A DNA stretch of 64,000 bases from Liolophura sinensis (taxonomy: Eukaryota; Mollusca; Polyplacophora; Chitonida; Chitonidae): NCBI RefSeq assembly GCF_032854445.1, contig NC_088304.1:1986001-2050000 (forward strand). Direction: 5' to 3'. The position numbers and the translations under genes are program-made. Of the stretch, positions 7,696-64,000 are shown piece after piece (the stretch's first letter is position 1; each line of letters begins with the position of its first letter). The notes beneath the pieces are model-generated. The model searched no databases and had not been told where the DNA came from. It saw nothing but the letters and a program-made list of their open reading frames with translations.

Positions 7696-8289
7696 CTTGT
7701 ACGCTCTGCTACCACCAATACAACACGAACGCATTTAGTAATTGTCTTTCAGCTGTCACGTTTTTATTCGCCATCTTTTCCTCCGTGACGCAAGGCATCT
7801 CTGCATCACCTTAAATACATGCATTCAATACACCTTAACAATAGCCATTGGGGACATCTTATCCAGTTTATACAGTACAATAGCACCTAGCTCACCTTTC
7901 CTTGACGGTTTTCACTTTACGTCTATAAGTGAACTACTTTTGGCTGTGGCTTTACGATGAAATAAACAATTTCGTTCAAACTAGACCTACCCCAACGAGT
8001 AATCAAAATAGGCCTACAACTGACTTGCTATGGTCTATAACTTCCTGCTGGCATGATGGCAACCTGACATCTTACTTTATTTAACTCATTTCCATAAGGG
8101 ATTTGTTCATCTGGAAGTTGGTCTCACACATCACTTCGTAATCGGTACACTCTTATCTACAAACATGAATTGGTCTATTTGGAATTTTGCTCTGTTACGA
8201 TTGTTTCTTTAATTTTCGCCAGTAAGATGTATAACTACATCAGCTCAGTTAAATATCTTGTAACATTGCTACTCGTCTTGTCACGCACA
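7696..8289. other. Unassigned DNA
   Basis: Nothing recognised; only short random ORFs. Confidence 0.5.
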
Positions 8290-13924: not shown

Positions 13925-15530
13925 GCTTTTTAACCAGCCACAAGCCCATACGTGCACCAAAGAATGCGGCATTTAGACAACCACAAGCCAATACGTACAC
14001 CATAAAATGCGACTTTTAGCTAAACACAAACCGATACGTACATTAAACAGTGCGACATTTCGCTAACCAGAAACCGATATGTACACCAAAGGATGCGACA
14101 TTTGGCTAACCACAAACCGATGCGTACACCATAAAATGCGACTTTCAGCTAACCACAAGGCGATAGTACACCAAAGTATGTGACTTTTAGTTAAACCACA
14201 AATCGATACGTACACCATAAAATGCGACTTTTAGCTGACTACAAGCCGATAGTACACCAAAGTATGCGACATTTAGCTAACAATAAACCTGTACGTACAC
14301 CATAAAATGCGACTATTAGCTAACCACAACCCGATAGTACACCAAAGTGTGCGACTTTCAACTAACCACAAGCCGATAATACACCAAAGTATGCGACATT
14401 TAGCTAACCACAGACCGATACGTACACCAAAGGATGTGACATTTAGTTAACCACAGACCGATACGTCACCAAAGGATGTGACATTTAATTAACCACAGGC
14501 CGATACGTACACCAAAGGATGCGATATTTAGCCAACCACAAGCCCATGCACAGGTACACCAAAATGTATGTGACTTTTAACCAACCACAAGTCGATACAT
14601 AGACTAAAGTATCGGGTGGGTATAAAAAATGGACCGTACTTTGACACTCAGTATCTCCGAAACCCTATTACGTCATCATCAAAGTACGGCCCATTTTTTT
14701 TTATGCCCACCCGATATATGCGACATTTTAGCTTACCACACGCCGATAGTACAACAAAGAATGCGACATTTAGCTTACCACAGAACCGTACGTACACCAA
14801 ACGATGTGACATTTAGCTAACCACAAACCCATGCATGCATAGGAACATCAAAGTATACGGGACTTTTATCCAAACATAAACCGATATGTACACCAAAGTA
14901 TATGCCACTTTAACAAAACACAAGTCAATACATACACCAAAGTATATGTGACTTTTAACCAACCACAAGCCAATACGTACACCAAAGTATACGCGACTTT
15001 TAACCAACCACAATTCGATACGTACACCAAAGTATACGTGACTTTTAACCAACCACAAGCCGATACGTACACCAAAGTATACGTGACTTTTAACCAACCA
15101 CAAGCCGATACGTACACCAAAGTATACGTGACTTTTAACCAACCACAATCCGATACGTACACCAAAGTATACGCGACTTTTAACCAACCACAATCCGATA
15201 CGTACACCAAAGTATACGTGACTTTTAACCAACCACAAGCCGATACGTACACCAAAGTATACGCGACTTTTAACCAACCACAATCCGATACGTACACCAA
15301 AGTATACGTGACTTTTAACCAACCACAATCCGATACGTACACCAAAGTATACGTGACTTTTAACCAACCACAAGCCCATACGTACATCAAAGTACACGTG
15401 ACTTTTAACCAACCACAAGCCCATACGTACATCAAAGTATATGCAACTTTCAGCTAATCACAGACTCATACTAATACTAAAGTTTGTGGGCGACTTTTAC
15501 AACCAATCACTGGCCCATGCGTACACTGTA
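13925..15530. repeat. 45-bp minisatellite, about 33 copies, homogeneous only at its right end
   Basis: Units contain CGATACGTACACCAAAGTAT and GACTTTTAACCAACCACAA. From about 14940 to 15460 the units are nearly identical at exactly 45 bp (15 codons), so both strands stay open; those frames are not genes. From 13925 to 14930 units are diverged in sequence and length. A hairpin element interrupts the array at 14610-14716. Confidence 0.95.
14610..14716. mobile_element. Short terminal-inverted-repeat element (MITE-like hairpin) inside the 45-bp array
   Basis: The left arm 14610-14642 begins TATCGGGTGGGTATAAAAAA and ends CCGTACTTT. The right arm 14681-14716 is its near-perfect reverse complement, starting AAAGTACGGCCC and ending CCCACCCGATA. 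About 38 bp separate the arms. Array sequence flanks both sides. Too short to encode a transposase. Confidence 0.8.
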
Positions 15531-17884: not shown

Positions 17885-19835
17885 TAACATAACAAACAAA
17901 TTCCTCAGTGTGGACATAAAGAACATGCACATAACACATTCCTCAGTGTGGACATAAAGAACAAGCACATAACAAATTCCTCAGTGTGGACATAAAGAAC
18001 AAGCACATAACAAATTCCTCAGTGTGGACATAAAGAACAAGCACATAACACATTCCTCGGTGTGGACATAAAGAACAAGCACATAACACATTCCTCAGTG
18101 TGGACATAAAGAATAAGCACATAACAAATTCCTCAGTGTGGACATAAAGAACAAGCACATAACACATTCCTCAATGTGGACATAAAGAACAAGCACATAA
18201 CAAATTCCTCAGTGTGGACATAAAGAACAAGCACATAACACATTCCTCAGTGTGGACATAAAGAACAAGCACATAACACATTCCTCGGTGTGGACATAAA
18301 GAACAAGCACATAACACATTCCTCAGTGTGGACATAAAGAACAAGCACATAACACATTCCTCAGTGTGGACATAAAGACCAAGCACATAACACATTCCTC
18401 AGTGTGGACATAAAGAACAAGCACATAACACATTCCTCAGTGTGGACATAAAGAACATGCACATAACACATTCCTCAGTGTGGACATAAAGAACAAGCAT
18501 ATAACACATTCCTCGGTGTGGACATAAAGAACAAGCACATAACACATTCCTCAGTGTGGACATAAAGAACAAGCACATAACAAATTGCTCAGTGTGGACA
18601 TAAGGAACAAACACACACCACGTTCCTCAGTGTGGACATAAAGAACAAGCACATAACACATTCCTCAGTGTGGACATAAAGAACAAGTACATAACAAATT
18701 CCTCGGTGTGAACATAAAGAACAAGCACATAACACATTCCTCAGTGTGGACATAAAGAACAAGCACATAACACATTCCTCAATGTGGACATAAAGAACAA
18801 GCACATAACAAATTCCTCAGTGTGGACATAAAGACCAAGCATATAACACATTCCTCAGTGTGGACATAAAGAACTAGCACATAACACATTCCTCAGTGTG
18901 GGCATAAAGAACAAGCACATAACACATTCCTCGGTGTGGACATAAAGAACAAGCACATAACACATTCCTCAGTGTGGACATAAAGAACAAGCACATAACA
19001 CATTCCTCAGTGTGGACATAAAGACCAAGCACATAACACATTCCTCAGTGTGGACATAAAGAACAAGCACATAACACATTCCTCAGTGTGGACATAAAGA
19101 ACATGCACATAACACATTCCTCAGTGTGGACATAAAGAACAAGCATATAACACATTCCTCGGTGTGGACATAAAGAACAAGCACATAACACATTCCTCAG
19201 TGTGGACATAAAGAACAAGCACATAACAAATTGCTCAGTGTGGACATAAGGAACAAACACACACCACGTTCCTCAGTGTGGACATAAAGAACAAGCACAT
19301 AACACATTCCTCAGTGTGGACATAAAGAACAAGCACATAACACATTCCTCGGTGTGAACATAAAGAACAAGCACATAACACATTCCTCAGTGTGGACATA
19401 AAGAACTAGCACATAACAAATTCCTCAGTGTGGACATAAAGAACAAGCACATAACAAATTCCTCAGTGTGGACATAAAGAACAAGCACATAACACATTCC
19501 TCAGTGTGGACATAAAGACCAAGCATATAACACATTCCTCAGTGTGGACATAAAGACCAAGCATATAACACATTCCTCAGTGTGGACATAAAGAACTAGC
19601 ACATAACACATTCCTCAGTGTGGACATAAAGAACAAGCACATAACAAATTCCTCAGTGTGGACATAAAGAACAAGCACATAACACATTCCTCAGTGTGGA
19701 CATAAAGACCAAGCATATAACACATTCCTCAGTGTGGACATAAAGAACTAGCACACAACACATTCCTCAGTGTGGACATAAAGAACAAGCACATAACATA
19801 TTCCTCAGTGTGGACATAAAGAACAAGCACATGAA
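17885..19835. repeat. 38-bp minisatellite, about 51 copies, with 646-bp higher-order periodicity
   Basis: Units of 38 bp contain CATTCCTCAGTGTGGACATA and AAGAACAAGCACATAACA. Variant units recur in the same order 646 bp (17 units) apart. For example, the block with GGAACAAACACACACCACG occurs at 18602 and 19248, and the - strand frames 18399-18614 and 19045-19260 are identical. The array ends about 130 bp before the SDR exon at 19965. Confidence 0.95.
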
Positions 19836-42385: not shown

Positions 42386-45300
42386 TTACTTTTTCACAAT
42401 CTGCACCACATCTTCATCGTTTAGCGTATGATCTTTGCCGACTTTCTGAGGCTGGTGTTTTACAGAGGAACCCCAAACTAGTGCGCTGAAAAGGAAGTCA
42501 AGTGTATGTCACTTATGCCAGTATCTAGATAAATCTTGTACTCACATCTCTGCTGTGGCCAGTTTCACACGAACAACATTTTATCTTGCACTATTTCTGA
42601 CCCAAAAAATGCGTGTATGAAAATATTATCACTTTCGCTTTCAGTTCACCGTTTCGACTCCAGTCAAAAAGGAGCATTTACTGTCATAGTTTCCATGCCT
42701 CCATGGACATAAAATTGCACTTTCGATTACTCGTCCGCTAATTCTCCCAAAAAATCTGAAGACCCAGCACCCCTTCTCGTGACGACGTTACTTTTCATTC
42801 CATTCCCAGTGAAAGCAATTATGACGTCCTGACGTCACAAAAGACTGATCATCTGCAACCAATGTGTGGGACATCCGGTTGACCTATTTGCAACAATACT
42901 GCTTACCATCGGTAGTGTGCTCTTCATGGACAGTTTGGAAAGGTCGCTAGGTTTCGCGTTTGAACTCTTTTGTTGCTAAAGGTAAAAACAGTCCATCTGT
43001 ATCATGTGACTTGTGAAAATGATAGGCACACTTCTTTGACATTAATTTACCGATGACCTGTCTCACCATGTTCTAGAGGCAAAAATGAAGTTTCCTTCCT
43101 GTAGGAACTACTCAAGTTCAGCTCCTCAATTTTCTACGTTGTTATTCTACGATAAATGACCCAAGGTTTCGCCCGCCTGTTTCTGCCATAAACTTTCCCA
43201 GGGGATGAGTTAGCAGCAAGATGAAGTGGATGATTAGTCCCCCAGCCTGTTCCATTACACTGCATGGTAGCTATGGTCTCTAATCTGCGCCACGCAGGGT
43301 CACGTCACATTATTATTTTGTGAACGGTTGTCTATTCAGAGCCCTCGTTACACAACAAATATTTGTACACATGTATTTCAGGTACAAATGGATTTCACTG
43401 AGAAATATCTGTCACCAACCTCCTGTATAATTTCAATGAAGTATGTCACTCAACGTTTTGTTTCCTTACAATCGAGACTGCAGAAGAGTTACCTTTCCGT
43501 TCCTACATTTTAAGATCGGGAACCTCCAATTAAACACAGAAAATCAAGGGACTCAAAGCAAGGTTTGAAACCTTTTCAGTAGCACTGTATGTGAATCTGG
43601 CATATCATCTATCAGACAGGACTTGTCTGTGTTGTTGACATATTAGAAGTTTGCACAACAATGACTGGCTATATATCAAAATAAAGTGCATGTTTTGTGA
43701 TTACCGGTATGCAAATTTGCCCAGGTGTGATACATACATCGCCAGCAACAGGTAAGATTATTTTTTTGCCTTTCGTCAGTAAAAATCATGCTATCGACGG
43801 GTATAACAGACACATGAAGATTTCGAGTCCTGCTGCTTGTAAGTTGTCGCTGTAAACGCAGTTTGACTGGTAGTTTGCAAGTAGGGAGTAGGGGTGCTAA
43901 GTTCTGTTATAGCTCTGTTACTGAAGAGCTCTGCATCTGAACAGATATTTGACATGCCACTCCACACGTGAACCCAGGTACTGGGTGCTTACGATCTCCA
44001 GCCAGTTTTCTCCCGAATTCCCATTCGTCATAAAATGGCGATCATAAAACAATCAAGGTTGTGAAGAAAGCGCACATGCATGTACATGTACTTAATCCAT
44101 GATGACTATTGGTGGTAGGAGCATAGACTGACTGCTCAGTGAAGCGTGAGCTTGTTTATTACATTTGGGGATTGTCCATATAATCCCCTGACCACCGCCG
44201 ATGATCCCCTGCGGCTGCCAGTCAGTAAGAGCCACAGTTAATGCAATGAATCATGGGATACACTTTTCGAGCCTACGGGCGAAAGGTCATTTACCTTAAT
44301 CTAAGTTACTTTCTGTGGATCTTTTTTTTCCCCATGTTAGTCTAAATGTGATCAAAAATAATTGCCTAACAATTTTGACAGGTCACATGATACAGTAGGA
44401 CTTTTTCTATCTTTAGCCCTAAAAGAGTTCAAATTTGAAACTCTCCTATATGTAATGAATGCATTTTCAAGGCATTGGACAAGTATTTATTGCTGGGTAG
44501 CTTGAACAGTCAATACAATCATAAAGGTATATAAAAAGCAGTCAATGAACAGGCCGTGAAAGACCGGATGCGTAAAGATATATCCTGAACTACCCTAGTT
44601 CTTCTAATTTTTGGGACAGATATTAGAAGTGTTGAAAGTAGAATATGACATTTCTTTACCAGCCTTTTAGAAAAGTGAAGATATGATTATATTGTCCATT
44701 AGATGGTCTAACCACGTGAGAAAAAAGAAACTCAATATTCCTGCTACAATTACATATATATATATTGGCTAAAATGAGCAGATTAAGTTTCAGACAAAAA
44801 AGGCAAAAATTAGAATAAATATGGTAACTCAAACATAATAGCAAGTCCATGTTTAGAACACTACTTACTATTTAAATTCCTTGAGGATGCTCCTGTGTAT
44901 TTTATTACAGAAATCCTCCACAGTGCTCCTTCCATCTTTCAGTACCACTGGTGACGTGTAGTCTGGAAGCTGACCTTTGGGTTTTGTGTAACTACCAATA
45001 CAAACAGAGATTACATATTCCTACATGTAACCAAGCCTGTCATTGGTTGATTTGAGTGAAGATAAAACAGCACAGAAAGCATACCTAATTTAACCAAATC
45101 ATGTTTTTATTTATTTATTTGATTGGTCTTTTTCACCATGCTCAAGAATATTTCACTTCTAAGACGGGGGCCAGCATTATGGTGGGAGGAAACCAAGCAG
45201 AATGTGTGAATGAACATCTATTACCAAGCCCTGTGGGTCCTCCTCAAAGTGCTTATAAGCCTAGCTTATACATAAAAAGGTATTATTAAATGAAGTATAG

Positions 45301-48300: not shown

Positions 48301-51300
48301 AAAGGCATGATGACATTTACAATCAAGCATGGTAAATCCAACAACGGTTGGCATCTTCAATCATAAAACCAATCAACATTTCAGAAACTCATGAGTTTAC
48401 ACATATTTATATGAGGCAAGGTGGGGCTCTCCCAAATTCTCGCACGCTTACATAATGAAAGGACAGGATCAAATCATGTCATTAGTCCATGAGAGCCACC
48501 ACCTTGTTTTGCTTAAACATGTGAGATTTCTGAAATGCAGATTCAGCTTTTACCCAGCAAATTCGCCAACTGTGAGGAACAAAATGCGCTGAGGTGAAAA
48601 TGTACATTTAGGGCAAGGCTAATAATAAATCAATAAATGTATGGCAGTAGCAGAATCAGGCTGGCCATGGCCATATCTGGAAAACAAATTGAAGGTTTTG
48701 ATCTCAAACTTTAAAGGTGACATTGTGATTGTGCATAAAGAAATTCTACAAAATGCAACGCAAAATGATGTTTTCTGAGAGTTTTCAACTCAGTGAATCA
48801 GAGAAATTTGCCTGAAGACATAAAGTTTTAAATGTTACGCTATAACATTTTTAATCAATTTACTCATGATGTCCATGGCTCAATTTGAGGTCATCATTTT
48901 TATTTTGAGCTCTTAAAAACGAGTGAATGACCAACCGTTTTGACCCCTGGACAGTCGTACATGCAGATGTCAACAACAACATTATGCTAAATGTTCCACC
49001 ATTTACTTGATTTTTCATTGGTGGTTTACGCCATACTGAAGAATATTACACCTGTACGACAGCGGCCAGAATTATGGTGGGAGCAAACCGGACAGAAGAT
49101 GACCTTCAGGGAGCAAACCGGACAGAAGATGACCTTCAGGGAGCAAACCGGACAGAAGATGACCTTCAGGGAGCAAACCGGACAGAAGATGACCTTCAGT
49201 AGGTTGCTTGTGGACCTTCAATTGAACAACTGCAGAGGAAGCAACTGGAAGTGGTGAGATCGGATCACGTCAGAGCCTCATCATGATGTCATCGTGTCGT
49301 AACTCCCTCATTGGTCAGGTTGGGTAACTCTGAAGTCCTTACCTGGATCTTGGCCCCTTTGTAACGGATGACCCCAGGAACCGTTGTTAGTGTCGTGAAT
49401 TCATACGATGCTACCTCAGAATAAACACCAGCAAGATTACTCAACAGGGTAGACTTCCCCACAGATGGAAAACCTAGAAAATCAATAAAAATTAAAACTG
49501 CAAAGCAGTTTTGGCCGGGGTCCACGTCGTTTGCTGGTTTAGTTATCATTCTACGCCATCAAATAGAAGGTAGCATAGCTATGTGTAATGCCACAACCGT
49601 TTCGGGAAATTATGGACAGCAGAAAGCATTAAGTGAAATACCATAAACCTAGTCCAGTTGCCATCTAACTCCATGTTAAAGCATTAGAATTAACATCTAT
49701 GTATAAAAAAAAATGGTGTTGTCATTAAAATGACTATATCTCAAAAAGTTACAAGGATAAGGAAAAAATAAATGCAGATTCAAGATCAGCAGCTCAAAAT
49801 AAACCAGAATACAATAAAAAAATTGAAATTTCAAAACTATTTGTGACATCACAACTTCAACCAATGGTGAGCTTCCAAAGTTTGTATCAAATTTCAAAAC
49901 AATCGGTTCAGTGGTTCTTGAGAAGAAGATGTTTGAACGATTTCATATAAAATGCAATATGGCTGCCAAACCATGTGACATAACAAAAATCAGGCTCCAT
50001 GGTGCACAACTTCAGCCATCAGGGAATAAGACTGTAAAATTTCAGGTCAATCAGTCAAGCGGTCTAGGCTGTAGGTGGCACACAAAATCGAATAAATAAT
50101 AATAATAGTAATCCAAACGATTTCAACAGGTGTCCCGCAGGACTAACTGCATGGACCCCTAAAACAAAAAAAAAAAAAAACAAAACAAAAAACAAAAACA
50201 ACTTAATTTAAACCCCAATGAAACAAGTAAATAAAATGTGTGCAATTTGGATGGCGGTGACAAATCAATGGATCTTGTAATTGACTGACATTTATTAAAG
50301 CACAAATCTCACCAACGAAACCAATACGAGAATCTCCGGTTTTAGCAACATCAAACCCCTCTCCTGTGGCACCCCCTCCGCCCTTAGGCTCAATTAACTC
50401 TCTCCGAAGTTTGGCCAGACGAGCTTTGAGCAAACCCAAGTGACCCATGGTAGCCTTGTTACGCTGCGTGCGAGCCATCTGAAATCACAAAATCAACTCT
50501 CATGAGCTCAACGCTGACCCCAGTGATATCAGGCACAGACACAAAGGGATGATATGTACATGACGTCAGTACAGGCCTGGAAATGTACAAATCAGTCCCA
50601 GACACAAAGGGATGATATGTACATGACGTCAGTACAGGCCTGGAAATGTACAAATCAGTCCCAGACACAAAGGGATGATATGTACATGACATCAGTACAG
50701 GCCTGGAAATGTGCAAATCAGGCACGGACACAAAGGGATGATGTGTACATGACATCAGAACAGGCCTAGAAATGTACAAATCAGTCCCAGACACAAAGGG
50801 ATGATATGTACATGACGTCAGTACAGGCCTGGAAATGTACAAATCAGTCCCAGACACAAAGGGATGATATGTACATGACATCAGTACAGGCCTAGAAATG
50901 TGCAAATCAGTCCCAGACACAAAGGGATGATATGTACATGACATCAGTACAGGCCTAGAAATGTGCAAATCAGTCCCAGACACAAAGGGATGATGTGTAC
51001 GTGACATCAGTACAGGCCAGGAAATGTACAAATCAGTCCCAGACACAAAGGGATGATATGTACATGACATCAGTACAGGCCTGGAAATGTACAAATCAGG
51101 CACGGACACAAAGGGATGATGTGTACATGACATCAGAACAGGCCTAGAAATGTACAAATCAGTCCCAGACACAAAGGGATGATATGTACATGACGTCAGT
51201 ACAGGCCTGGAAATGTACAAATCAGTCCCAGACACAAAGGGATGATATGTACATGACGTCAGTACAGGCCTGGAAATGTGCAAATCAGGCACGGACACAA

Positions 51301-58664: not shown

Positions 58665-61600
58665 ATGGAGAAGGACAAGGCTGACGTGGATATGGCTTCA
58701 GAGGAGGGTGGTCGTGACAGTGTGCCTCGGGGCTCCTCAGAGGGGGAGGGAGAGGAGGGTCGTCGAGGTGACACCCCCGGCCCCCTCCCTCAGTACCAGT
58801 ATGACCGGGTGAGTGGAACTGTTGACCAATACACCAGGACAGGCTGTATTCTGCCTCAGGCTATTCAAAAGAGTATTCAGAATTGAGCTTGGTGTTATCT
58901 TTGGTCTGGTTTAAAGTTGAATTAGGTTTGAACAACTGGCCCCAGGGGCTTGTTTCATACATCTGTCTTTTACATATTAAACCATTCGAACATCATTATG
59001 TGTAATTTATTGTGCTAGAAATTAAGACTGCTATATCGTTTTTTTTATTTCAGAATAAACTCACCGAATTATCAAAGAGCCCAGCTGCTAAGATGTGGCC
59101 AGGCTTTTTGGATAAGGAGTATATCAAGTAAGCAGATAGATTTGAAACTTCTCGCCTTTGGATATCTAGTTATCACTGTTTGCTCAGAATCCTGTATTAT
59201 ACGAGCAGCAGGTCTGCAAATAACTTAATAAAGAGTGGCTGACAAATTTCAAAATTCATTCAATCCATTGTTTTGCAGATTTTTTCTGTATGTTATCTAT
59301 TTGAAGTTTGTCAGACACCACTTCGTGCAGTGCAGTGTATATACTGGATGAATCCTCATCATATAAAGCCCAAGCAATTTAAATTCTATAATTTGAAAGA
59401 TGGAGACACTCTTCAAGTAATGAAAAGAAATTCCCATAAATACTTCAGAATTGTACGTGATTGTAAGGAAAATCTTGTCTGCAATCGAGGAAAACTTTCG
59501 GTAGTTTAAAACCTAATTGGTTTTTATGTTTCAGTGAGGATGGTTGTTGGGACCCTGAGAAATGGTTTCGTGGGTGTTCCCCTGTGCAGGGGGAGTTTGC
59601 AGAGAGGAAGAAACCCTCTTCTCTGGACCTGGTACCCATGAGGAAGCGACCTGCAGGTAAGCAGTTAGTGGTCAGGTGATTCATGTGTGCTGATTCAGGA
59701 GCTGATAGAGGCGTGACAAAATCAATCAAAATGGAAAAAGTTTCAGAACCAAAATTAATATTTCTGGTAAATCTGCCTCTAGAAATGCACTTCTTTGAGG
59801 CAAAATATTATGTAAGTTCTAAAGTGTGGGCTGAAAGTCAAATGGTGGAAAAAAGTAACACTAATGAATATGTGTATGTTATAAATATTGGCAGATCCCA
59901 AAGAGAGGCTGAAGGAGGAGCGTGACGGGATTGTGTTGAGTCCTCAGAGACGGAGCTTCGGGACCGGATGTCATGTGACGCAGGCGAGCGTTCTGCGTCA
60001 GCAGAGCTGCCCATCAGACTTCCGTGAAGGAAGTGATCGTGACAGGTACATGCGTTAGTTCTGTGTAGGCTTAGCAATTTGGAGCTGACACAATGGCTCT
60101 CGTATGCTTAGTCCGCTAAGCTCCCTTGTTCCAAAGTGTTTCAGCAGTTAAGCCTGGTATTAACTTTCGTCTGAACTGAAGTCCTGTTGGGTTTGTATTA
60201 GAACAAAACTGGTACATACATTAAAGTCTGGCTTAAATTTGAATACACTGTGGAAAATCCCCAAATTCTCGCTGATCCCAAATTGTCTTTCTCACTTGTC
60301 CTTGTGAATTTCATGTCTTGAACAGTTTTCAACCAATTAGTTTCATACTTTAACTTTAAAAATTGCTTACAGTAAACTTTAAAGAGACAGTTGGAATTCA
60401 TATTCGTCACGCTGTGTAATTCAGTGTGGTGGATTCCCAGTCAATCACGTTTATACTCTAACATGTGCAGTGGCTCGACATGTAGGTGAAAGGGCAGCTG
60501 GGATTAATTTTTGTCATTGAACGTAATCTAGATTGGCTGGTGTCGAGTATTTCGGATTTCCTGCCAGTCACACCTTGCTTTGTGACGTAACTATACACTG
60601 AGAATGGTCATTTGTCTCACAATAACATGCGGGACGTGTCAGTTTCTGTGCCTGTACTGTGAAATAGCTCTGTGCGACCACAACAGATTGGCAGATAACC
60701 AATGAGATGGGAGGCTTGAATTCAGTTATTGCTTGTTCATCTGCGGCTTTCATTCAAATGGTTTGTCAGATACCTGGATTCCACCACTGATAAATGAAAC
60801 ATCCTCCAGTGGAGAAAAGTTTCTGCGTACTGGGTTGAGTACCAATTCCCAAAGCAAACAAACATTTATTGATAAGTTTGTGTTGTATTTCAGGGACAGA
60901 CGGGACCAGAGACGAATTGGGAGTGGGCGGATCCAGATTGATCGCGACCAACCCAGGGATCGTGATCGAGACTTCCACCGAGATCGATTTGATCGTGACC
61001 TGCGTGATAGGGACCGGGACCGTGACCTGCGCGACCGCGACCGTGGTGATAGCCGACGGTATGATGACCGCTACAGTCGAGATAACAGGGATAGTGACAG
61101 ACGGGTAAGTAGATGTGAGAGCTTTAACTGCAGACTAGCAAAACATACCTTCTAAATAAAAACCTCCTTCTCACCAATGCAGTCGCTATGAGCTCAAGTC
61201 CAGCTCATGCTGGCTTCCTCTCCGGCCGTAAGTGGGAAGGTCTTCTGGCAACCTGCGGATGGTCGTGGGTTTCCCCCGGGCTCTGCTCGGTTTCCACCCA
61301 CCATTATGCTGGCCGCCGTGGTATAAGTGAAATATTCTTGAGTACGGCGTAAAACATCAATCAAATAAATAAATAAATAAAAACCTCCTTAACTCGGAAT
61401 ACTGTTTAATTTGAAAGGAATGATTTGGATCTGTATTTGGTCAATTGGAAGAACAGGTTTACAAGATCTTTTCAAATCTTTGCATGTAGATATTATTTAA
61501 TTCTAATGTTATAAAGAAGGTATTACTGATTCATAGGGTGGGGTTTTGAGAAAAGTCTCGAAAGTTAAAGTTCTTTTGTGCATTGATCATGTGAAATGAC

Positions 61601-63932
61601 TGCAGCCTACAAAGATCAAAATTAGAAACGGTTTTCAAACATACCAATAATTTCTTGCATATATTTTTCTTCCGGATTTCAGAGGGATTACCGTGGATAT
61701 TCTTCAGGTGAGTGCGAATGGTAACGAGCTTCAGTTTTTGAAAATGATACAGGTAGCATGTGTATAGCTACTATCTCCTGTTCAGTACATTTGGATCTAC
61801 TGAAGGTTACAGACTTCAGATTGAGGAACAGTTGTAATGGAAAAAAAAAAGGATAAAAGTAACACTGATTTTATGTTATTAGATTGAACCGACACTAAGA
61901 AGTCCAGAAATCAAATAAAAATGAAAATCCACCTTTTTCTTGTGTTAGATCAAGATATTTTATGATTTTCCTGTGTTTAATGTTTCCTGATCGGGTAGAC
62001 AGGTCTTCAGCCAAAAAATTGCTTGGGCAGTTTACATTTCCTTTAGAGTAGATGATTTTTGAATTGTATTTTCAGTTTTATACCCTCCAGTGACATTTGA
62101 AATAGATGAGCTTGAAATTGATTGACCTAATGTAACAGAAAAGGGTTAGTTTGTAATATAAAAAAGGAAATATAAATTTCAGTACGGCGTGGTCGTGACT
62201 ACCGTATGGAGGAAGAGGAGGCACCAGAGTGGTTCACGGAAGGGCCTGTCAGTCAAACAGACACAATTGAGCTGCGAGGGTTTGACCGGGTGGAGGAAGA
62301 GGATGATGCAGAAGTTGAGGAGAGTCCAGCCCCAAAACCAGCAAGGAAAGAGAGCAAGAAACAGTCAGGTAGGTCTGACGAGTCCCAAAACCAGTGAGGA
62401 AAGAGAGCAAGAAAGTCAGGTAGGTTTGAAGAGTCCCAAAACCAGCGAGGAAAGCGAGCAAGAAACAGTCAGGTAGGTCTGACTAGTCCCAAATTCAGGG
62501 AGGAAAGAGAGCAAGAAACAGTCAGGTAGGTCTGACGAGTCCCAAATTCAGCGAGGAAAGAGAGCAAGAAAGTCAGGTAGGTCTGACGAGTCCCAAAACC
62601 AGTGAGGAAAGAGAGCAAGAAACAGTCAGGTAGGTCTGACGAGTCCCAAAACCAGCGAGGAAAGAGAGCAAGAAACAGTCAGGTAGGTCTGACGAGTCCC
62701 AAAACCAGCGAGGAAAGAGAGCAAGAAACAGTCAGGTAGGTCTGACGAGTCCCAAAACCAGCGAGGAAAGAGAGCAAGAAACAGTCAGGTAGGTCTGACA
62801 AATAGCGAAACCATCAGACAAAGAGAGAAAGAAGCAAACGGGTAGGTCTGACGAGTCCCAAAACCAGTGAGGAAAGAGAGCAAGAAACAGTCAGGTAGGT
62901 CTGACGAGTCCCAAAACCAGCGAGGAAAGAGAGCAAGAAACAGTCAGGTAGGTCTGACAAATCCCGAAACCATCAGACAAGGAGAGAAAGAAGCAAATGG
63001 GTAGGTCTGACGAGCCCCAAAACCAGTGAGGAAAGAGAGCAAGAAACAGTCAGGTAGGTCTGACAAATCCCGAAACCATCAGACAAAGAGAGAAAGAAGC
63101 AAATGGGTAGGTCTGACGAGCCCCAAAACCAGCGAGGAAAGAGAGCAAGAAACAGTCAGGTAGGTCTGACAAATCCTGAAACCATCAATCAAAGAGAAAA
63201 GAAGCTAACGGGTAGGTCTGACGAGTCCCAAAACCAGCTAACAAAGAGAGCAACAGACAGTCAGGTAGATCTGACAAGTCATGAAGCCAGCAAAGAGAAC
63301 AAGCCTCGCTTTCAACATCGCTGTTGTAAAAAGTCTGACTCCAAAGTATATTAGAGATGTAATCTCAACAGAGGCAGTAGGCACATCACTATTTTAGAAT
63401 AGTCACGGTTTTATTCCACCAATTCTGAAGGAACGTTAGCCACTTGTGGTACAAAAAAAGTGAATATTTCGAGATCATTTGAGGGATGTCATATGTGATG
63501 ATGAAAATGTTTAAAAAAGAAATGGAGCACACATTTGTTGATTGTGCTGTGCACTTGCCCTTTTTGTGAGGAATTTTCTTTTTGGTTGATATTTTCTGAA
63601 CTAGCCTGTGGAAGGAAAATTAATTAAGCCACTGTGTTGCACTATTGATCCAAATGGCTCCTGATCTATATGCTTAGAAACCTGGTTTTAAATGGTGCAT
63701 GTATTGGATGGTGTGAACAAGTACATATTTTGTGTCCTCAGGTATCTGTGTGACTGACCGTAATGGGAGCCTGGAGACAAATGAGTCCAGTTCTCCTGAG
63801 ACAGAACCACAACCAGTGCCCACTTCCTCCCATGCGGCCATCCATCATCAAAACCGACGTTCACCTGCACACCAGTCCTCCCTATTTGATTTCAATGAGT
63901 TCTTCAACATAGAAAACATTCCAGGCCTTGGT
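58665..63932 (+). CDS. eif4enif1: EIF4ENIF1 / 4E-T, eIF4E transporter (N-terminal part, 8 coding exons; continues beyond window)
   Basis: Exons: 58665-58808, 59054-59127, 59535-59656, 59895-60045, 60894-61104, 61683-61707 (a 25-nt microexon), 62183-62368, 63742-63932. All have AG/GT borders and consistent phases; together they give 368 codons. Recognisable 4E-T landmarks in order: an eIF4E-binding motif YDRNKLT spanning exons 1 and 2; WDPEKWF; the block ERLKEERDGIVLSPQRRSFG; RRIGSGRI followed by a long Arg-Asp-rich stretch; the DDX6-binding Cup-homology region (EAPEWF...TIELRGFD) in exon 7; and FDFNEFFNIENIPGLG in exon 8. From the family: 4E-T shuttles eIF4E, sits in P-bodies and represses and protects deadenylated mRNA through eIF4E, DDX6 and LSM14. 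The ATG at 58665 follows a usable acceptor (AG at 58656-58657), so untranslated exons probably lie upstream. Odd points are the Thr in the hydrophobic position of the eIF4E motif and a minisatellite that copies the exon 7 donor. The human protein is near 985 aa, so most of it lies outside. Confidence 0.96.
60046..60893 (+). other. 4E-T intron 4
   Basis: 848-bp phase-2 intron (donor GTACATG, acceptor TGTATTTCAG). No repeat family recognised. Confidence 0.85.
61170..61374 (+). mobile_element. Mollusc-type SINE in 4E-T intron 5 with perfect target-site duplication
   Basis: Head to tail on the + strand: CAAGTCCAGCTCATGCTGGC, TCCGGCCGTAAGTGGGAAGG, GATGGTCGTGGGTTTCCCCC, ATTATGCTGGCCGCCGTGGT, AAGTGAAATATTCTTGAGTA, CGGCGTAAAACATCAATCAA, then (AAAT)n. 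The 16-bp AAATAAAAACCTCCTT occurs at 61154-61169 and 61375-61390. Part of it could be tail, but AAAACCTCCTT is a clear duplication. Confidence 0.93.
62329..63300 (+). repeat. Minisatellite of ~53-bp units made from the end of 4E-T exon 7 plus its splice donor
   Basis: The last ~40 nt of exon 7 (CCCCAAAACCAGCAAGGAAA, GAGAGCAAGAAACAGTCAG) and the first intron bases GTAGGTCTGACGAGT form the unit. About 17 further copies follow in intron 7. Two subtypes partly alternate (GACGAGTCCCAAAACCAG and GACAAATCCCGAAACCATC). Units are about 50-56 bp, not a multiple of three. Confidence 0.93.
63301..63741 (+). other. 4E-T intron 7, right part
   Basis: Nothing recognised; ends in the acceptor TGTGTCCTCAG of exon 8. 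Confidence 0.7.
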
Positions 63933-64000
63933 GTAAGTTAGAACATTCATCAGATGCTTTGTTAAGGTTCAAAATCTCTCAAAAGATTTTGAAAAATAAA

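Follow-up and report, generated by a model that had tools for sequence, protein, structure and literature searches.

The 3′ end of coding exon 7 of the gene for the eIF4E transporter 4E-T was multiplied, together with its 5′ splice site, in a tandem array of 18 copies within the window, which is the whole 64-kb stretch of DNA that was analysed. The array is probably (at a probability of about 0.7) a minisatellite of the type called mirages, mostly neutral and spliced from its first donor, the use of donor 1 being predicted from the reading frame alone. Comparable arrays were found along contig C1, and the 4E-T array is not a one-off. The features of the locus were as follows.

61683..61707, + strand, coding exon 6, a 25-nt microexon (RDYRGYSS); sole candidate in a microexon scan, which reconciles the phase of exons 5 and 7
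62183..62368, + strand, 4E-T coding exon 7, with the DDX6-binding (CHD) peptide (PF10477, PDB 5anr_C); its last 38 nt are array unit 1
62331..63280, + strand, 18-copy tandem array, unit 53 nt (51, 52 or 53 between donors), from TRF, donor spacing and unit alignment
62366..62374, + strand, authentic 5′ splice site of copy 1 (CAG/GTAGGT), GT at 62369, last exon base 62368; sole in-frame donor of the 18
62395..62397, + strand, in-frame TGA met after splicing from donor 2 or later, from translation of 18 joins
62417..63270, + strand, 17 duplicate donors (12 CAGGTAGGT, 4 GGGTAGGT, 1 CAGGTAGAT), from word counts, donor spacing and joins
62804..63226, + strand, stretch with four B-type units (copies 10, 13, 15 and 17) and A-type units interleaved, from unit alignment and pairwise differences
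63281..63300, + strand, degenerate partial 19th copy at the 3′ edge, seen by eye outside the TRF interval
63742..63932, + strand, exon 8, joined in frame from donor 1 only; its 3′ limit has two possible donors

Exon 7 was bounded by the acceptor TTTCAG (62177–62182) and the donor CAG/GTAGGT. It matched the Pfam family EIF4E-T (PF10477) with an E value of 2.2e-14 and chain C of PDB entry 5anr, named eIF4E transporter, with an E value of 1.1e-6; we take this entry to be a DDX6/CNOT1 complex. The exon 7 locus was the single EIF4E-T match returned by the genome search, and PF10477 covered residues 12–191 of a protein joined by hand from exons 5, 7, and 8 in one stretch. The number 7, given to the exon in a preliminary description of this DNA, holds if the 25-nt microexon is counted as a coding exon. 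The same description had stated that a truncated 4E-T would retain its DDX6-binding part, and the match of exon 7 to the 5anr_C peptide agrees with this. Judged from the translation, the eIF4E-binding motif presumably lies in exons 1–2.

TRF returned one array with a period of 53, 18.0 copies, and 83% matches. Unit 1 was composed of the final 38 nt of exon 7 and the first 15 nt of the intron, and the earlier statement that the exon end and the first intronic bases form one repeat unit was borne out, with 38 of the 53 nt being exonic. About 17 further copies, mostly with an identical donor, had also been described, in agreement with the TRF copy number and with the 12 of 17 later donors that read CAGGTAGGT. 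The pattern GTAG[GA]T occurred 18 times at distances of 51–53 nt, and the GT donor core was present in 18 of 18 copies. The word CAGGTAGGT was found 13 times in the window, every time inside the array, compared with a mean of 0.33 and a maximum of 2 in 100 shuffles. It formed the donor of copies 1–9, 11, 12, 14, and 16, while CGGGTAGGT was found in copies 10 and 17, TGGGTAGGT in copies 13 and 15, and CAGGTAGAT in copy 18. Thirteen donors matched CAGGTAAGT at 8 of 9 positions, and none matched it better. In the unit alignment, GTAGGT was intact in 17 of 18 copies and was one of just 2 six-base stretches, among 48, with this degree of invariance. The two bases before it were AG or GG in 17 of 18 units, and AG/GT was present in 14 of 18. 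The base content of the array was poor in T (only 11%).

The B-type copies differed from the A-type copies at 12–18 positions (12–13 from copy 1). Copies 7 and 8 were identical, as were copies 6 and 11 and copies 9, 12, and 16. At the 3′ edge, copy 18 differed from the A-type copies at 7–12 positions, and at the 5′ edge copy 1 differed at a single position from copies 7 and 8. Interleaved A and B units, identical copies, and a diverged copy 18 form the pattern that minisatellite turnover yields.

When the array was searched for in the genome as a dispersed element, no match was returned except the 4E-T locus, and an Rfam scan of 62000–64000 gave 0 families at the gathering threshold. The predicted folding of 210 nt, about four units, was as stable as that of shuffles (z 0.05). 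In a codon-position test for coding constraint in the B-type copies 10, 13, and 15, 6–7 of 11–12 changes fell at third positions (P 0.06–0.11), which was not significant. At 62364–62379 and at the matching places of A-type copies, the sequence GTCAG-GTAGGT-CTGAC would fold into a hairpin with a perfect 5-bp stem and the donor hexamer as its 6-nt loop; by eye, copy 2 and the B copies lack an intact GTCAG/CTGAC pairing. Since the hairpin is present in A-type copies including the first, it cannot single out donor 1.

Exon 7 was ended at each of the 18 donors, joined to exon 8 by a script, and translated. Donor 1 alone kept the frame into exon 8. All 17 later donors gave one identical truncated frame (...KKQSGRSDESQNQ-stop), and the earlier claim that reading past the first donor meets the TGA, with full-length 4E-T obtained from the first donor only, agrees with all 18 joins. 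Some stop past donor 1 was to be expected, because a single frame of GTAGGTCTGA holds both TAG and TGA and the period of 53 is not divisible by three. Donor 1 and its copies shared the same 9-mer with near-identical flanks; local sequence therefore hardly separates donor 1 from the copies, and position can. As to the interpretation offered in the preliminary description, the choice of the first among equal donors is retained, with only donor 1 in frame and no local mark on it, and the tunable switch proposed beside it has no support here.

Selection on the repeated donors was evaluated across arrays. The units were aligned, the first three consecutive exact copies, of the sort by which an array had been picked up, were excluded, and the exact-match rate of the donor word was compared with that of the other 9-mers of the unit. 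In total, 46 arrays entered (45 and the 4E-T array) and 27 were scored; the other 19, including those of UDPGT, homeodomain, and EGF, were dropped because they had too few copies, no such triple, or no donor in the consensus. The donor percentile had a mean of 0.545 over the 27 arrays (P 0.45). The exact-rate difference between the donor and the other 9-mers was +0.07 (P 0.18), with the donor higher in 14 of 27 arrays, which are not fully independent because L032 and L033 are near-duplicates. The array period was divisible by 3 in 10 of the 27. A percentile near neutral argues against both a maintained switch and purging, and the later donor copies look invisible to selection, like intron sequence. 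The 4E-T array itself had a percentile of 0.75. In the SNF2/Mot1-like array L052, with 38 copies, conservation of the donor GT was 0.82 compared with 0.94 for the rest of the unit, the opposite of 4E-T, which possibly reflects purging in this one gene.

Across the genome, three CAGGTGAGT words at a spacing of 35–65 nt were found 691 times compared with 57 times for the reversed word, and three CAGGTAAGT words at the same spacing 461 times compared with 160 times reversed. Arrays were grouped by eye on C1, which comprises 96.4 of 609 Mb, and the listed CAGGTGAGT matches reached 95.9 Mb. At least 29 CAGGTGAGT arrays were present on C1. The reversed word formed 4 arrays on C1 and 16 genome-wide, and one of the 4 was the homeobox donor array, which contains both words. 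The word CAGGAGAGT, one base from CAGGTGAGT and no donor, formed 4 arrays on C1 and 15 genome-wide. Single CAGGTGAGT sites numbered 10120 compared with 2743 for the reversed word, as a result of real donors; the first 100 single sites listed fell at 58 places, 10 of which were multi-copy clusters that together held 52 of the sites. The excess of donor arrays over the genome-wide control had a P value of 3.5e-8 when the donor sites were de-clustered and 1.6e-4 raw. Against the reversed word on C1 alone, P was 0.008 de-clustered and 0.14 raw, the latter not significant; only the donor word was de-clustered in these tests. A 2- to 5-fold excess of donor arrays per site is thus likely, not proven, and mirage-type repeats look common in this genome. 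Pairs of CAGGTAGGT at short spacing, with a gap shorter than the period of the 4E-T array, showed no excess (169 compared with 195 reversed), which argues against a general donor excess for this word.

By TRF rows, 16.7% of the 64-kb window was tandem repeat. Large arrays were located at 75–1198, 13938–15441, and 17895–19832, the last with 51 copies of 38 nt. The frames at 45089–45289 and 49011–49202 (+), 61194–61388 (−), L040, and L082 were alike by eye, with such frames also beside tandem arrays elsewhere, and look like a dispersed element.

The exons in front of the arrays were identified by reading the longest open frame up to the first donor in 45 arrays, which were all those among the matches listed (16 of CAGGTAAGT and 29 of CAGGTGAGT). 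Frames of at least 20 aa were found for 30 of the 45, and 29 were compared with Pfam, as L033 repeats L032. Recognised coding exons stood at the start of 10 of the 45 sampled arrays. Seven of the 29 frames had Pfam matches with E values of 1e-4 or lower, namely FAA hydrolase (22.5 bits, just under the Pfam cut-off of 23.9), MH2, UDPGT, SNF2 (also supported by a PDB match), RIBIOP_C, homeodomain, and EGF_CA. Three further exons (2-oxoglutarate dehydrogenase, high-affinity choline transporter, and cullin-1) were recognised in the PDB, which was searched for seven array frames chosen by apparent recognition; the controls were compared with Pfam only. The exon calls of L034, L037, and L038 had no PDB match. 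A weak deoC match was obtained for L034 (E 0.0058) and none for the five other proteins searched alongside it, and none of these was counted. Also uncounted were the matches of L040 (TM_ErbB1, E 0.0034) and L045 (Tma16, E 0.0025). The figure of 10 of 45 is probably a lower bound, since 15 frames were too short, the arrays L002, L042, and L046 reached or nearly reached the start of the fetched sequence, and stray first donors occurred (L023). Among 15 CAGGAGAGT control arrays, 11 had frames of at least 20 aa and 0 had Pfam hits compared with 7 of 29 for the donor arrays (Fisher P 0.16), which makes this control weak evidence by itself.

Eight of the 10 exon-verified arrays had no later in-frame donor before a stop; in one of these, BMS1, the chain held the first donor only. 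Later in-frame donors were present in the other two, the homeodomain array (two) and the FAA hydrolase array (one). The homeobox exon end (WYQNRRMKWKKQ) was multiplied with its donor at G000:C1:92961135-92962136 (L041, L057), with 15 donors in the chain, and its two later in-frame donors could lengthen the protein.

The acceptor word TTTTGCAGG occurred at 7700 single sites compared with 3890 reversed. It formed 12 arrays genome-wide, 2 of them on C1, and its reversed form none. Per site, arrays of the donor CAGGTGAGT were 11.6 times as frequent as those of this one acceptor 9-mer in raw counts, and 13.2 times when both were de-clustered from the first 100 listed sites. A single acceptor word is a narrow base for this contrast. 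The roughly 12-fold bias of donors over acceptors may reflect a rule by which the first donor wins. If the 5′-most of equal donors wins, duplications across a donor would grow harmlessly into the intron, and after a duplication across an acceptor, use of the first acceptor would carry copied exon sequence into the mRNA. The asymmetry could alternatively come from a mutational bias of the words or from easier decay of T-rich tracts. We suggest only tentatively, as a reading that may well prove wrong, that mirages extend beyond amphioxus, with about 180 CAGGTGAGT arrays in this possibly non-chordate genome if C1 is typical, and that the roughly 12-fold rarity of acceptor arrays is the footprint of the first-donor rule, acceptor duplications having been removed.

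The anatomy of the 4E-T array and the observed divergence of its units suggest a history that began with a tandem duplication across the 3′ end of exon 7 and the adjoining 5′ splice site, after which slippage or unequal exchange would have expanded the array downstream, within the intron. The spliceosome would commit to the 5′-most donor, which is transcribed first and is nearest to the 3′ splice site of the exon. Copies 2–18 would then be removed as intron and drift neutrally, in line with the result over 27 arrays. Occasional use of a later donor would give the single truncated frame, and nonsense-mediated decay is probably a likelier fate than a stable truncated 4E-T. The many such arrays in the genome would follow from dense minisatellites and from donor duplications that are tolerated when the first donor wins. 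Several observations count against this reading, namely the use of later units in human IFI6, the later in-frame donors of the homeodomain and FAA hydrolase arrays, the 4E-T percentile of 0.75, and the invariance of GTAGGT. According to excerpts of PMC5585400, the intron-proximal (later) of competing donors is favoured in mammals when SRSF1 is bound a short way upstream of them. The purine-rich exonic part of the 4E-T unit could attract SR proteins, which would also count against first-donor use.

A tunable switch is an unlikely alternative to neutral splicing from the first donor. SR-protein or hnRNP levels would shift use to later donors, and the outcome would be either a truncated 4E-T that lacks the C-terminal part and still binds eIF4E and DDX6, or less 4E-T through decay of that transcript, with the array length setting the ratio. 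The one truncated frame from all 17 later donors, the DDX6-binding peptide in exon 7, the near invariance of GTAGGT across the 4E-T copies, and the two downstream units used as donors in human IFI6 (excerpts of PMC4526556) would suit such a switch. The earlier proposal of a truncated 4E-T made in this way nevertheless found no support, as the repeated donors were neither retained nor purged over 27 arrays, arrays of this architecture occurred at unrelated genes, and excerpts of PMC3087553 and PMC3902484 report undisturbed splicing in amphioxus. Quite unlikely, too, is a role of the copies as multiple U1 sites. An array that recruits many U1 snRNPs would strengthen the definition of exon 7 with its GTAGGT donor or guard the intron from premature polyadenylation. 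The 13 identical U1-matching sites and the outnumbering of control 9-mer arrays by arrays with donors are consistent with it, but the donors were conserved no more than other unit positions in the 27 arrays.

The birth of an intron or exon in progress, in which the AG/GT proto-splice sites of the array would become a new exon end or intron, is very unlikely. AG or GG before GTAGGT in all but one unit favours this idea, which was also put forward for amphioxus mirages in excerpts of PMC3087553. These cite the model of Rogers, in which introns are gained when AG/GT proto-splice sites are duplicated in tandem. The 4E-T array shares the AG/GT at the duplicated boundary with that model, which, however, requires a used acceptor in a copy, and the 4E-T units have no pyrimidine tract. 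The T content of 11% and the same stop in each extended exon argue against intron gain of this type. An assembly artefact is likewise highly improbable: tandem arrays are often mis-sized, but the A and B units were interleaved, the 3′ edge copy was diverged, and many comparable arrays were present in the same long-contig assembly.

Amphioxus mirages were reportedly described by Canestro in 2002 (NAR 30:2871). In excerpts of PMC3087553 and PMC3902484, mirages are tandem duplications of exon-intron boundaries that resemble minisatellites, and the amphioxus cases are Adh3, globins, troponin C, and PGBD5. The same excerpts give length differences between haplotypes, somatic instability at Adh3, and no interference with regular splicing; in PMC3087553, RT-PCR suggested undisturbed splicing. 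The 4E-T unit falls within the length range of Adh3 mirages (10–72 bp, excerpts of PMC3087553). In both cases the units span an exon-intron boundary, most with AG/GT signals. A homogenised interior that excludes the edge copies may also be shared: inner copies are identical and the copy at one edge is diverged, but copy 1 of 4E-T is only one difference away from copies 7 and 8. Unlike the amphioxus mirages, the 4E-T array has the donor side multiplied, and its host may not be amphioxus.

The human 6-16/IFI6 minisatellite was reportedly described by Turri, Cuin and Porter in 1995. According to excerpts of PMC4526556, it supplies several splice donors, of which those in two downstream units are used. 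As in 4E-T, a minisatellite at an exon end offers several donors to one transcript; later units are reported as used donors in IFI6, whereas later donors of 4E-T would truncate the protein. Variable internal tandem repeats that lie at exon-intron boundaries of human duplicated genes are reported to make exons longer or to create new introns (excerpts of PMC2812944). These are also minisatellites that alter gene structure at exon edges, but they form introns, and no new intron was seen in the 4E-T array. In the titles and abstract openings of the papers listed, no mirages by that name outside amphioxus and no genome-wide census were found. The 4E-T array belongs to a class of repeat that is known but has received little study. 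The surprise is the scale on which such arrays occur, in a genome that may not be chordate, together with the bias towards donors, and the census is the part worth following beyond this locus. The choice among equal donors has usually been studied with two competitors, and here introns of unrelated genes carry many near-identical donors, where splicing from a wrong one would readily show in the frames and stops. If the first-donor rule is true, these arrays are natural experiments in multi-donor competition. They also bear on minisatellite growth at exon edges and on the seeding of new introns.

Other genes were noted in passing. The frames at 49289–49558 and 50203–50484 (−) look like a gene that we take to be a DRG-type GTPase. 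The genome search, which does not show absence, returned no match for the GFP family. Ten guanidino-kinase matches were found in the genome. The best PDB matches of L048 were taurocyamine and arginine kinases, headed by two-stretch entries, and creatine kinases ranked far below them. Seven other matches were 83–95% identical to L048, and one with two internal stops was 45% identical. The kinases suggest a protostome host; amphioxus, in which creatine kinases would be expected, is doubtful. At G000:C4:1549274-1550965, two arginine kinase domain matches were contained in one 747-aa open frame, which apparently encodes a two-domain kinase that is intronless there.
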